Positions 10,119-13,821 of a DNA stretch of 33,769 nt are shown in pieces. The position numbers were made by a program, and so were the translations under genes. The DNA is from Beijerinckiaceae bacterium. Its GTDB lineage: Bacteria; Pseudomonadota; Alphaproteobacteria; Rhizobiales; Beijerinckiaceae. Positions within the stretch are counted from its first letter, which is position 1, and each line of letters starts with the position of its first letter. The notes beneath the pieces are model-generated. The model worked only from the letters and a program-made list of their open reading frames with translations, had not been told where the DNA came from and searched no databases. The stretch spans positions 1-33,769 of the forward strand of contig CANBVC010000006.1 of assembly GCA_947372795.1 (NCBI GenBank). The letters run 5' to 3'.

Positions 10119-10136
10119 TGTCAAAATTTGTTGACA
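10119..10136. promoter_or_regulatory. PpsR/CrtJ box 1 of pucBAC, overlapping a -35 element
   Basis: TGTCAAAATTTGTTGACA matches the full PpsR consensus TGTC-N10-GACA. Its right half contains TTGACA (10131-10136), a perfect sigma-70 -35 hexamer, so a bound repressor would block polymerase. A convincing -10 is not evident; TAAGAC at 10153 is the nearest candidate. PpsR itself is encoded at 16718-18031. Confidence 0.8.
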
Positions 10137-10144
10137 ACTGAAGT

Positions 10145-10162
10145 TGTCAGAATAAGACTACA
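10145..10162. promoter_or_regulatory. PpsR/CrtJ box 2 of pucBAC
   Basis: TGTCAGAATAAGACTACA fits TGT-N12-ACA and lies 26 bp after box 1, over the expected -10 region. Paired sites allow cooperative PpsR binding, as is known for puc and bch promoters. A separate perfect palindrome, TGACAACTGAAGTTGTCA (10132-10149), bridges the two boxes. Confidence 0.65.
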
Positions 10163-10283: not shown

Positions 10284-10439
10284 ATGACAGACGACCCAAA
10301 CCGTGTTTGGCCAACGGGATTAACCGCCGGGGAATCTGAGGAACTGCACAAGCACCTGATCGATGGAACCCGAGTTTTTGGGGCCATCGCTCTGTTCGCG
10401 CATTTCCTCGCCTATGTTTATTCACCCTGGCTTCACTAA
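10284..10439 (+). CDS. pucB: Peripheral light-harvesting (LH2/LH3) beta polypeptide
   Basis: A 51-residue single-helix antenna apoprotein. The N-terminal part [19 protein letters not shown] is the LH2 beta signature. His40 in FAHFLAY should ligate the ring-bacteriochlorophyll pair, and His22 corresponds to the residue near the B800 pigment. The C terminus ends SPWLH, like Rhodoblastus acidophilus beta chains. GGAGG lies about 8 bases upstream of the ATG. It is followed 12 bases later by pucA. It belongs with the peripheral antenna, not the LH1 core, because of the partner alpha sequence and the adjacent pucC. Confidence 0.93.
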
Positions 10440-10451
10440 GGGAGAACGAAC

Positions 10452-10673
10452 ATGAACCAAGGCAGACTCTGGACAGTGGTCCGGCCCACCGTTGGGCTTC
10501 CCATGTTCCTCGGCGCTGTGGCGATCACTTCATTGATCGTCCACTTTGCCGTCTTGACGCACACCACCTGGTTCCCGGCTTTCTTGCAGGGCGGCCAGAA
10601 GAAGGTTGCGATCGAAACCCAGACGACCGCTACGGCCGCTCTGGCTCTGAACGACGTGGCGACCGTCAAGTAA
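10452..10673 (+). CDS. pucA: Peripheral light-harvesting alpha polypeptide, B800-820 (LH3) type
   Basis: A 73-residue antenna alpha chain starting [12 protein letters not shown], very close to the LH2 alpha of Rhodoblastus acidophilus. His31 is the bacteriochlorophyll ligand of the ring. Residues 44-45 are Phe-Leu (PAFLQGG); in B800-850 complexes these are Tyr-Trp, whose hydrogen bonds to the pigment acetyl groups set the 850 nm band. Phe-Leu at this place is known from the B800-820 complex, so a band near 820 nm is predicted. The C terminus has about 20 residues beyond the acidophilus length, ending [10 protein letters not shown], possibly trimmed. GGGAG lies 7 bases before the ATG. A terminator-like hairpin follows the gene. 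Confidence 0.94.
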
Positions 10674-10730: not shown

Positions 10731-10847
10731 AAAATACGGCGATCAACGCCGAGATCGCGTGCGGCTGAGGGTGCACGCCCACAAAAAGGATCAAAGGCGC
10801 GCTGTCTCCACTTGATCCACGTGGCCACAAAAGGACTGGCTCACATC

Positions 10848-12257
10848 ATGAATCGCGTCAGCCTGAAACTCATGCACACTTGGTTAGGCCTTGGCTCACG
10901 GTTTCTTCCTTTCGCCGACGCAGCGACGCCTGACCTGCCGCTGGGACGCCTCATGCGTCTTTCCATGTTTCAGGTGACGGTCGGGATGGCGCTTGTCCTG
11001 CTGGTGGGCACGCTCAACCGTGTGATGATCGTCGAGCTGGAAGTGCCTGCATCGTTGGTGGGCGTGATGATTTCACTGCCGCTTCTGTTCGCGCCTTTCC
11101 GCGCGCTGATCGGGTTCAAATCAGACACACATCAATCCGCCCTTGGCTGGCGGCGCGTACCCTTCATCTTTCGCGGCACCATGGTGCAATTCGGCGGCCT
11201 CGCCATCATGCCATTCGCCTTGCTGGTCTTATCGGGCGGTGGCGAATCCGCGCGCTACCCGATCTGGGTCGGGCACATTGGCGCGGGCATAGCGTTTCTG
11301 CTCGTAGGAGCGGGTCTTCATACGGTGCAGACCATAGGCTTGGCGCTGGCCACTGATCTTGCGCCCCCCGAATCTCAACCCAAGGTCGTTGGCCTTATGT
11401 ATGTCATGCTGCTTCTTGGCATGATCGTCAGCGCAGTATGCTTTGGCGCGGCGCTGGCTGACTTCAGCCCGCTGCGGCTCATTCAGGTGATTCAGGCCTG
11501 CGCGGTGATCACCATCGTTCTCAATGGGGTCGCCGCCTGGAAGCAGGAGGGCCGCCACGCGGCGCGACGAAATCCTGCACGCAGCCAGCCGTCCTTTCGT
11601 GAGTCCTGGGACTCTTTCGCGCAAGGCGGTCATGCGGTAAGGCGCCTTCTGGCGGTCGGATTCGGCACCATGGGTTTCAGCATGGCGGATGTGCTGCTGG
11701 AACCCTATGGCGGGCAGATTCTGCATCTGAGCGTGGGCGCGACGACAAGCCTGACGGCTACGCTCGCTGGCGGGGGCCTGATCGGCCTCGCCATTGCCTC
11801 GCGCGTGCTGAGCCGCGGCGCGGATCCTTTCCGTATGGCGAGTTATGGCGTGATGACGGGCGTACCCGCCTTCGTGGCGGTCATGGCGGCTTCGCCATAT
11901 CAAGCTCCCGAATTCTTCGCCGTGGGCACCTTGATGGTCGGCTTCGGCGCTGGGTTGTTCGGCCACGGCACCCTGACGGCGACGATGAATTTGGCGCCAC
12001 GCACACAGGTTGGACTTGCGCTCGGCGCCTGGGGCGCGGCGCAGGCGATCGCCGCGGGTCTTGCGATCGCCGTTGGCGGCATCATACGTGATCTCGTCAC
12101 AAGCGCGCCGATTGAGAGCCAGCTTGGGCCGGCGGCCGGCTATATGTGCGTTTACGCACTGGAAATAATACTGCTGATCTGGACACTGGTCACAATGGCG
12201 CCCTTGATGCGCCAAAGCATCGGCGTCTCCGCCAGGAGCAGAGGCCCATCTGTTTAG
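10848..12257 (+). CDS. pucC: LH2 assembly protein PucC, BCD-family major facilitator
   Basis: A 469-residue polytopic protein, paralogue of the LhaA at 1394-2848, needed for assembly of the peripheral antenna. It repeats the family signatures: FADAATPDLPLGRLMRLSMF, GTLNRVMIVELEVP, LLFAPFRALIGF, GWRRVPFIF, GLHTVQTIGLALATD and DVLLEPYGGQ, with about twelve hydrophobic helices. The ATG at 10848 gives the family-like start MNRVSLK; an upstream TTG at 10812 is possible but not convincing. It follows pucBA, which decides pucC over lhaA. The last four bases overlap the 3' end of the convergent small gene at 12254. Confidence 0.92.
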   Translation: MNRVSLKLMHTWLGLGSRFLPFADAATPDLPLGRLMRLSMFQVTVGMALVLLVGTLNRVMIVELEVPASLVGVMISLPLLFAPFRALIGFKSDTHQSALGWRRVPFIFRGTMVQFGGLAIMPFALLVLSGGGESARYPIWVGHIGAGIAFLLVGAGLHTVQTIGLALATDLAPPESQPKVVGLMYVMLLLGMIVSAVCFGAALADFSPLRLIQVIQACAVITIVLNGVAAWKQEGRHAARRNPARSQPSFRESWDSFAQGGHAVRRLLAVGFGTMGFSMADVLLEPYGGQILHLSVGATTSLTATLAGGGLIGLAIASRVLSRGADPFRMASYGVMTGVPAFVAVMAASPYQAPEFFAVGTLMVGFGAGLFGHGTLTATMNLAPRTQVGLALGAWGAAQAIAAGLAIAVGGIIRDLVTSAPIESQLGPAAGYMCVYALEIILLIWTLVTMAPLMRQSIGVSARSRGPSV

Positions 12258-12616
12258 AGGCTCGAGGCCCAGGCGATGCAGAGCAGCACTCCCGCTACGC
12301 CTGCGCTTCCATGGGCGACCAGCATGGCGTTGGCGATTAGGCGTGAGCGTTTGCCAAAGATCGGGGTCAGCAACCCGATGAAAGCCGCCAGCGCCAGAAG
12401 GCCGGCGGCGACATTGCCGAAGTCGCCTGCGGGCAGGCCATCGGCGCTGGGCGTCCCTTTCAGGAGAACGACCAGAATTTCAAGAGCGCCTAGACCCAGC
12501 AGAAGGTGCAATCCAATCAGAACTGGCTTTCGTATGCCGCGCAGATGAAGACCAACTAGAACAACACCAAGCGCCATGGCGGCGAGCGGAAGAATCAGGA
12601 ACGGAAACATCGGCAT
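12254..12616 (-). CDS. Small four-helix membrane protein, unknown
   Basis: A 120-residue, very hydrophobic protein with about four membrane segments: FPFLILPLAAMALGVVLVGLHL, PVLIGLHLLLGLGALEILVVLL, FGNVAAGLLALAAFIGLL and a last one ending GVAGVLLCIAWASSL. A central hydrophilic loop contains KGTPSADGLPAGD. I recognise no named family. The ATG at 12616 starts MPMFPFLI; an ATG at 12610 or a TTG at 12634 are alternatives. It converges on pucC with a four-base overlap of the 3' ends and is divergent from the repeat-protein gene at 12883. The shared 266-bp upstream region contains a PpsR-type box, so it could be co-regulated with antenna genes; that is an inference. Confidence 0.7.
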   Translation of the reverse strand: MPMFPFLILPLAAMALGVVLVGLHLRGIRKPVLIGLHLLLGLGALEILVVLLKGTPSADGLPAGDFGNVAAGLLALAAFIGLLTPIFGKRSRLIANAMLVAHGSAGVAGVLLCIAWASSL

Positions 12617-12785
12617 GTCAGAACCCGGGCGCAATTGAGAGCGGCGAAACGGCTTGCAGAATAATCATCAAGGCGTGGTCTGGGCAATGGCGTTAGTAGC
12701 TTAGCATGCTTTGCGGCTCGCACCTCTCAGCCTAACGAAAATCGTTTCGTAGCAGCCTGTAGCGGACTTGCCAGAAAGCTGTTTC

Positions 12786-12803
12786 TGTCGCAAATTTAAA
12801 ACA
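12786..12803. promoter_or_regulatory. PpsR-type box upstream of the 16-residue-repeat gene
   Basis: TGTCGCAAATTTAAAACA fits TGT-N12-ACA and ends 79 bp before the ATG at 12883, within the divergent intergenic region. A six-base match of this kind arises by chance about once in 4 kb, so position is the main support. A separate inverted repeat, ACGAAA-4-TTTCGT, lies at 12735-12750. Confidence 0.5.
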
Positions 12804-12882: not shown

Positions 12883-13821
12883 ATGAGCACACTCATTACC
12901 CGATTCTATCAAGCCTACGGCGACGCCTTGAGCGCGGTGAACGAACTCAGGGGCAACAAGTTCGGCGGCGGCTCGCTCCACCTGATCTCGCTTGCCCCGA
13001 ATGATCCAGCCCAGATTGGAGTCGCTCTCGAGGATCGCATCATCCAGGCAGGCATTCCCGCGGCTGACGCCGCAGCCTTCGCCTCAGCCGTGCAGCAGGG
13101 CTATTCGCTTGTCGCCGTCAACGCCGTGATGGGCGTCGGGCTCAAGGCCACGGCCATTCTCAACGCCCACAATCCAATGAAGGATATGGTCGAGAGTAAA
13201 GACTATTACGTTTCTACGGTCGATAAAGGCGCGCCCTTGTCCTCGGTCCTGGGTATTCCTGTCGTGCTGCGCGATCCGACGCCGTTCGCCACCTTCTGGA
13301 ACATGCCGTCACTGGTTAAATCCTCGACGCCCCTTTCCAACTTTTTCAGCATTCCCTCCCTGTGGCGCCAGCCCTCGAGCGAGACCACCCTCTTCGGGTT
13401 CCCGAAGCTGCTGCGCAGCAAGCAGACCCTCTCCTCTTGGTACAACCTTCCGCTGCTGATCAAGAGCGGGCGGCCCTTCAACGAATTCTTCCGCATGCCG
13501 GAGCTCACGAGCATCTCATCGCCCTTCTCGTCCTTCTTCCGCATCCCCTCGCTCATCAACGAGCCCGGCTGGGACGCGCAGGTGCAGGGCGTGCCCAAGC
13601 TGGTGGACAGTTCTGCGTCCCTGTCTAGGTTCTTTGGCTGGCGAATATTGACGGAGAAGAGCGACCCCATCTTCCCGTCATCTGGAGTGAACAATCTCAG
13701 CGGAACGCCAGCGCCACTTTCCGCGATGTTGAGCATTCCCACGTTGTTAAAGAACGGCGGGTCGCTCTCGGGGATGTTCGGCATCCCGCTGTTGCTGAAC
13801 AAGCGTAAAGTGGGCGGCTGA
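12883..13821 (+). CDS. Repeat protein: stress-protein-like N-domain plus twelve 16-residue repeats
   Basis: A 312-residue protein that I cannot name. Residues 1-100 resemble the YflT/general-stress-protein-17M fold: an N-terminal FYQAYGDALSAVNELRG, then AGIPAADAAAFASAVQQGYSLVAVNA, as in that family's acidic helix followed by a beta strand. From about residue 118 to 309 twelve units of exactly 16 residues follow without any insertion. The pattern is roughly P-L-S-x-F-F-x-I-P-x-L-L then four polar residues; prolines fall at 126, 142, 158, 174, 190, 206, 222, 238, 286 and 302, with Arg and Asn at 254 and 270. There is no signal peptide or true membrane helix. It stands between pucC and the bphO-bphP-ppsR operon with a PpsR-type box upstream, so a photosynthetic or antenna-related role is plausible but unproven. 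Confidence 0.85.
   Translation: MSTLITRFYQAYGDALSAVNELRGNKFGGGSLHLISLAPNDPAQIGVALEDRIIQAGIPAADAAAFASAVQQGYSLVAVNAVMGVGLKATAILNAHNPMKDMVESKDYYVSTVDKGAPLSSVLGIPVVLRDPTPFATFWNMPSLVKSSTPLSNFFSIPSLWRQPSSETTLFGFPKLLRSKQTLSSWYNLPLLIKSGRPFNEFFRMPELTSISSPFSSFFRIPSLINEPGWDAQVQGVPKLVDSSASLSRFFGWRILTEKSDPIFPSSGVNNLSGTPAPLSAMLSIPTLLKNGGSLSGMFGIPLLLNKRKVGG
13234..13809 (+). repeat. Twelve in-frame 48-bp units encoding the 16-residue repeats
   Basis: The coding repeats keep a strict 48-base period over 576 bases. Protein pattern is conserved (FF/FW, then I/M/L-P, then L), while codons have diverged between units, so this is an old array under protein-level selection, not a recent slippage tract. Units 9 and 10 (around residues 254 and 270) are degenerate but keep the frame and spacing. 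Confidence 0.85.

Follow-up and report, generated by a model that had tools for sequence, protein, structure and literature searches.

We analyzed a stretch of DNA of 33,769 nucleotides (hereafter, the window) from a Beijerinckiaceae bacterium, in which a gene downstream of the pucB, pucA and pucC antenna genes encodes P0001, a protein of 312 residues with an N domain and twelve tandem units of 16 residues. In textbooks LH2 is a complex of alpha and beta chains, and the LH2 14 kDa gamma of Rhodobacter capsulatus is PucE. The repeats of P0001 resemble those of another gamma, the LH2-gamma of Rhodopseudomonas palustris, and the repeat-bearing family is tied to LH2. The likeliest role of P0001 is that of an LH2-gamma-like subunit or an assembly ribbon. 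Judged from its sequence, it seems to be a variant of the LH2-gamma kind, a kind that would then reach well beyond Rhodopseudomonas as a wider LH2-linked family, and gamma itself may be a repeat-only, pigment-binding offshoot of that ribbon family. Three questions thereby become open to test: does a third subunit occur in many alphaproteobacterial LH2 rings, what determines ring size, and where did the bacteriochlorophyll-binding serine arise? A search of the open-access literature returned nothing pointing to a puc-linked family with this N domain and repeats, apart from the report on R. palustris LH2 (PMC9618040). The features discussed below are as follows.

10119..10162, forward strand: pair of TGT-N12-ACA boxes preceding pucB
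10284..10439, forward strand: pucB, LH2 beta chain (PF00556 match at 10332-10433; translation)
10452..10673, forward strand: pucA, LH2 alpha chain with H31, F44 and L45 (PF00556 match at 10461-10574; translation)
10812..12257, forward strand: pucC (PF03209, E 5.6e-151)
12786..12803, forward strand: TGT-N12-ACA box preceding the repeat gene, not conserved
12883..13821, forward strand: LH2-gamma-like protein P0001, 312 residues (open reading frame with ATG start)
12883..13212, forward strand: N domain, residues 1-110, with YflT-like sequence and PII/CutA-like (ferredoxin-like) predicted fold
13234..13809, forward strand: twelve 16-residue units, residues 118-309 (self-similarity, motif scan and alignment)

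The repeats and the N domain of P0001

Self-similarity within residues 117-308 was greatest at lags 16, 48 and 32 (z 10.8, 10.6 and 9.6), and none of 2000 shuffles reached the lag-16 value, whichever lag between 5 and 59 was taken. The units run from residues 118-133 to residues 294-309, twelve in all and without insertion or deletion, just as the initial annotation had described, and their commonest residues give the consensus P-F/L-S-S-F-F-G-I-P-S-L-T-R-S-S-T. The anchor proline is kept in 10 of the 12; R254 replaces it in unit 9 and N270 in unit 10, the two units already noted as having lost the proline and kept the phase. A motif scan, using a profile made from family sequences, that of the window protein among them, recovered ten of the twelve units, and nine of these passed the strong threshold. 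The two that fell below the motif threshold, units 8 and 10, have drifted with their phase kept. Position 5 is occupied, in order, by L, W, F, F, Y, F, F, Q, F, S, L and F: serine occurs there once, in a degenerate unit, and the residues of the other units at this position are mostly hydrophobic. Serine is frequent at position 2, where it may merely cap a one-turn helix that AlphaFold draws at low confidence.

The repeat region of the window protein aligned without internal gap to those of eight orthologues, whose identity to it over this region is 57-90%, and all twelve units are kept throughout, suggesting, as far as sequence can tell, that the repeats make a counted, register-locked contact and are not a loose linker. 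AlphaFold gave residues 111-312 a pLDDT below 50, and the repeats scored 29-45 per block of ten residues with no regular structure, so the solenoid proposed earlier was not borne out. Because the mean pLDDT was only 38.3 when the repeat region was modelled alone, we make no claim of a known fold for it. Neither Pfam nor NCBIfam gave a match to P0001 at E 0.1, and the plasmids searched gave none either.

The AlphaFold model of residues 1-110 is compact, of alpha/beta type, and has block pLDDT values of 65-90. The best fold match of this predicted domain was a PII protein, with Z 8.7 over 80 aligned residues, rmsd 2.8 and 9% identity. PII and CutA proteins may share the predicted fold of the N domain (Z up to 8.7), but their identity to it is 3-15% and the Z values are close to those of common arrangements; no shared function is implied. 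In sequence, the N domain has the pattern of the YflT or general stress protein 17M domain (PF11181). P0001 itself had no Pfam match to YflT at E 0.1 or 1, 4 of 24 aligned family members matched it weakly (best E 0.014), and a profile of the N domain picked up a YflT-type protein, L138, at 2.8e-18, which, unlike P0001, has no such repeats. The assignment of a YflT-type N domain in the initial annotation is thereby weakly supported.

Antenna genes and the distribution of the repeat gene

Profile searches and translations recovered the neighbours named beforehand: pucB, pucA and pucC and, further along, genes for heme oxygenase, BphP and PpsR. The alpha chain of the window, presumably similar to the alpha chains of nonameric LH2, appears LH3-like at position 44 (F44). 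LH3 is given as F44 with M45 or F45, a list from which the L45 of the window is absent, in the part of the source available to us (PMC5069747). With F44 and L45, the antenna can be called LH3-like, as had been proposed.

The window contains eight TGT-N12-ACA boxes against 2.55 expected. The pair upstream of pucB is found again in L002, L003, L004, L006 and L007, five of the six orthologous loci tested that include the upstream DNA; the sixth, L008, has only the second box of the pair. A PpsR-type box upstream of the repeat gene had also been reported, and it is indeed present, 97 bases before the gene; the 300 bases upstream of the gene in eight of eight orthologues contain no such box, and a conserved PpsR box at this site was therefore rejected. 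In the window clade, the distance from pucC to the repeat gene is about 610-660 bases, so the gene may have its own promoter there. On the reverse strand of the same interval (12254-12634), divergent from the repeat gene, lies a gene for a conserved hydrophobic protein of 126 residues, likely a membrane protein. Of 10 loci tested, 9 have it, at 52-86% identity, and 122 of its residues gave no match in Pfam or NCBIfam.

We then surveyed the neighbourhoods of homologues, as the initial annotation had suggested. All three of pucB, pucA and pucC lay within 3.5 kb of the gene in 44 of 48 loci and in six of six further loci of the window clade, giving 50 of 54 in total. The locus L091 has pucBA and no close pucC, the contig breaking off shortly past the gene; L133, L135 and L136 are extra copies with no puc genes in the DNA read around them, from genomes in which a further copy sits at a puc operon. 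Altogether, four extra paralogues in two genomes sit away from puc genes; those at L135:7610-9601 and L136:7699-8616 have steps of 25-29 residues. The gene is fewer than 260 bases from pucC in 31 of 48 loci. It lies between pucA and pucC in ten (L052, L053, L086-L090, L092, L130 and L131) and between two pucBA pairs in two (L093 and L094); in the latter (L093:7555-10680 and L094:7489-10560), pucBA pairs flank the gene on both sides and pucC follows. The region L132:2590-8349 contains five successive pucBA pairs and pucC, together with a divergent relative of 332 residues whose steps measure 10, 18, 22 and more.

A family-profile search matched 36 of 397 genomes of the order. On reading, 20 of the 36 (the window, G037, 17 others and G133) had the unit motif, and at least one step of 16 or 17 residues was found in 15 of these 20; G085, G298, G060, G096 and G133 had from one to three or four looser units with steps of at least 25 residues. 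The other 16 genomes matched by the N domain alone, and 13 of them lack reaction-centre genes. Reaction-centre genes are present in 76 of the 397 genomes and in 19 of the 20 that carry the repeat gene; the exception, G220, has pucBA adjoining its repeat gene. Among the 57 reaction-centre genomes without the repeat gene, 53 had two or fewer antenna-chain matches, which we read as LH1 alone, and four, all of one genus, had six to eleven. The repeat gene was thus found in 20 of 24 LH2-bearing genomes versus 0 of 53 single-pair phototrophs (Fisher p 7e-15, uncorrected for kinship), the four LH2-bearing genomes without it being those of the single genus. Antenna genes occur in 10 of 41 genomes of the window genus, where the gene is present in all five with pucBA and absent from all five with one LH pair or less. 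In a sample of the class, 11 of 33 matches were strong, and all ten besides the window adjoin pucBA. We read the 11 strong class matches and 2 of the other 22; the matches L096 and L097 were rejected as due to chance. Family matches numbered 39, and those read were six repeat-bearing genomes (window included) and one that was YflT-only. Homologues widespread in non-phototrophs and with another named function had been put forward beforehand as an observation that would speak against a link to the antenna. The repeat-bearing homologues passed this check, since they track LH2, although relatives with the N domain only do occur in non-phototrophs.

Resemblance to the gamma subunit of Rhodopseudomonas palustris

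The repeat had been described as unlike any nameable family; we found that it resembles the repeat described for LH2-gamma of R. palustris. According to the parts of the source available to us, gamma, reported in 2022 and found by BLASTp only in Rhodopseudomonas, runs as an extended ribbon close to the cytoplasmic side and passes around six of nine LH2 alpha/beta pairs, and a serine in each of its repeats ligates an extra bacteriochlorophyll at a mean spacing of 27.6 Å (PMC9618040). The same parts list alpha, beta and a gamma of about 10 kDa in purified R. palustris LH2, with no mention of an N-domain protein; they describe gamma as a stable subunit in four structures, unseen in other LH2 structures, and report that recombinant LH2 assembled without it (PMC9618040).

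In a sequence search of the PDB, the best match of P0001 was R. palustris LH2-gamma at E 0.1, which is not significant; when the family profile was used instead, gamma ranked third (E 0.53) after two albumin-binding fragments that matched the N domain. Gamma (RPA1495; PDB 7zcu chain S) consists, like the repeat region of P0001, of tandem 16-residue units, and the registers match once the prolines are aligned: both have G at position 6, P at 8, L or I at 10, and aromatic or hydrophobic residues at 1 and 4. Both are also encoded with pucBA and pucC, the gamma gene in the pucBA-pucC operon in related genomes. However, gamma is a chain of about 97 residues with six units and no N domain, whereas P0001 has 312 residues, twelve units and a predicted folded N domain; and the Mg-ligating serine, present at position 5 in every gamma unit (six of six in the six-unit chains scanned), is missing from 11 of the 12 units of P0001. 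Because of the missing serine and the N domain, P0001 is, on its sequence, not gamma proper.

We examined the shared register with a profile of 108 units from nine twelve-unit proteins of the window clade. Three gammas gave column-permutation p values of 0.0014, 0.0018 and 0.0074, and for each a single phase stood out, the runner-up scoring far lower. When the profile was made from seven other members, p was 0.02 for gamma and 0.0002 for the repeats of P0001; for a negative control, a period-17 repeat cut into 16s, it was 0.06. By itself this test is moderate evidence. A gamma fragment searched against the 397 genomes of the order gave two hits, both of which were read and rejected, that in G038 (L059) because its repeat period is 17 and that in G364 (L060) on reading.

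The same fragment matched 9 of 149 genomes of the family of G376, in three genera, and we read eight regions from seven of the nine. The gammas of two matching genomes are 93-95% identical to that of R. palustris, and the genus g431 was therefore taken to be Rhodopseudomonas. In all eight regions the order was pucB-pucA-pucC, an N-domain protein that we call X, and a repeat-only gamma-type chain. X is 214-222 residues long, except that the second copy of L113 has 249 from its first start codon. Its first and last units are of the window type, such as TPFSSWLGLPVLL, its inner units are of the gamma type with serine, such as GPYKSYSGEPLLL, and all are in a single register except for some contracted 13-residue steps. 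X thus shares with P0001 a similar N domain, window-type units at both ends and its position after pucC, but differs in length and in having seven units, the inner five of the gamma type with serine. The N-domain profile scored three X proteins at 1.4e-17, 5e-19 and 2.6e-24 and found none of 1200 shuffles. Since this profile also finds L138, the N domain alone would not tie X to the window family, and the tie rests on the N domain, the units and the place after pucC jointly. An N domain, in-register units and puc linkage were all found in this family, the Rhodopseudomonas-like X included. We consider that X, in carrying both kinds of unit, supports a relation between the repeats of P0001 and those of gamma.

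Two genes of R. palustris CGA009, RPA1491 and RPA1492, are pucBe and pucAe (PMC5069747), and RPA1495 encodes gamma (PMC9618040); gene order would then make RPA1493 pucC and RPA1494 the gene for X. Five relatives (X and gamma of L111, and the relatives from L132, L045 and L086) came nowhere near a cut-off in NCBIfam; in Pfam, X of L111 had no match, and the gamma of L111 hit DUF3823 at 2e-4, which falls short of the cut-off for that family.

Proposed role at the LH2 ring and alternatives

We regard P0001 as a probable wrapping or assembly subunit of the antenna and favour, with moderate confidence, its being a gamma-like ribbon subunit dedicated to LH2. The repeat relation and the puc linkage can be seen in the sequences, and the docking, pigment and ring-size roles are proposals. 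The N domain would lie in the cytoplasm. The repeats, presumably unfolded alone, would become ordered as an extended chain on LH2, running in the headgroup zone along the outer cytoplasmic rim of the ring, with one 16-residue unit docked per alpha/beta pair on the model of gamma. Such a chain could brace or close the ring, and it may bind additional bacteriochlorophyll, with some other ligand in place of the serine of gamma. The earlier guess that the protein binds antenna rings is likely to be right. Speaking against the subunit reading are the direct E-values to gamma, which are not significant, and the p of 0.06 in the register control. The same holds for the near-absence of the ligating serine, for the N-domain protein going unmentioned in the available parts of the R. 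palustris LH2 paper and recombinant LH2 assembling without gamma, for the four LH2-bearing genomes that lack the gene, for the five order members with few units and no 16-residue step, and for the four paralogues away from puc genes.

The number of units bears on this model. At a step of 27.6 Å, twelve units would span about 330 Å, and the circumference of a nonamer at the ligands is about 250 Å; the chain is thus too long for one turn of a nonamer unless some units are undocked. Either the ring is larger than nine-fold, or the drifted units 8 to 10 are undocked, or the chain overlaps itself or reaches a neighbouring ring. A bolder version, which we regard as doubtful, is that a single twelve-unit chain fully girdles the LH2 (LH3-like) ring, as a ruler that fixes its size or as a belt adding up to 12 bacteriochlorophylls through a non-serine ligand, and represents an overlooked third kind of subunit in many Alphaproteobacteria.

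Other roles would account for parts of the same evidence. P0001 could be a transient factor for LH2 assembly, whose N domain works with PucC and whose repeats hold successive alpha/beta pairs or pigments and then leave. The closeness of the gene to pucC in those 31 loci fits this role, as does a long chain with no predicted fold of its own, which would suit the binding of clients, and the available part of the R. palustris LH2 structure paper mentions gamma but not the N-domain protein (PMC9618040). On the other hand, gamma, with a similar repeat, is described there as a stable subunit, and four genomes have LH2 and no such gene. We give this role limited weight, as a possibility. It is unlikely that the protein is a linker between complexes, with units docked on the rims of several LH2 rings, or of LH2 and LH1, so as to organise the membrane: twelve units exceed nine alpha/beta pairs, and the drifted units 8 to 10 could be a hinge between two docking stretches, but relatives scanned from beyond the window clade mostly show 3 to 7 recognised units, a small number to serve two rings.

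The reading of P0001 as a general stress protein of the YflT type with an unrelated low-complexity tail draws on the YflT-like N domain and on the 16 N-domain-only matches, most of them in genomes without reaction-centre genes. We consider it highly improbable, as the repeat-bearing members track LH2 and sit in puc operons. L058, the N-domain-only match that was read, has no repeats.

Gamma-type chains themselves vary in unit number and length. At L113:10165-10602, a chain of nine units, eight of them with the serine, lies beside six-unit gammas, and its unit number equals the number of alpha/beta pairs in a nonamer. In gamma relatives at L114:7078-7356 and L115:8028-8282, several units are shortened to 13 residues with SG-P-LL kept.
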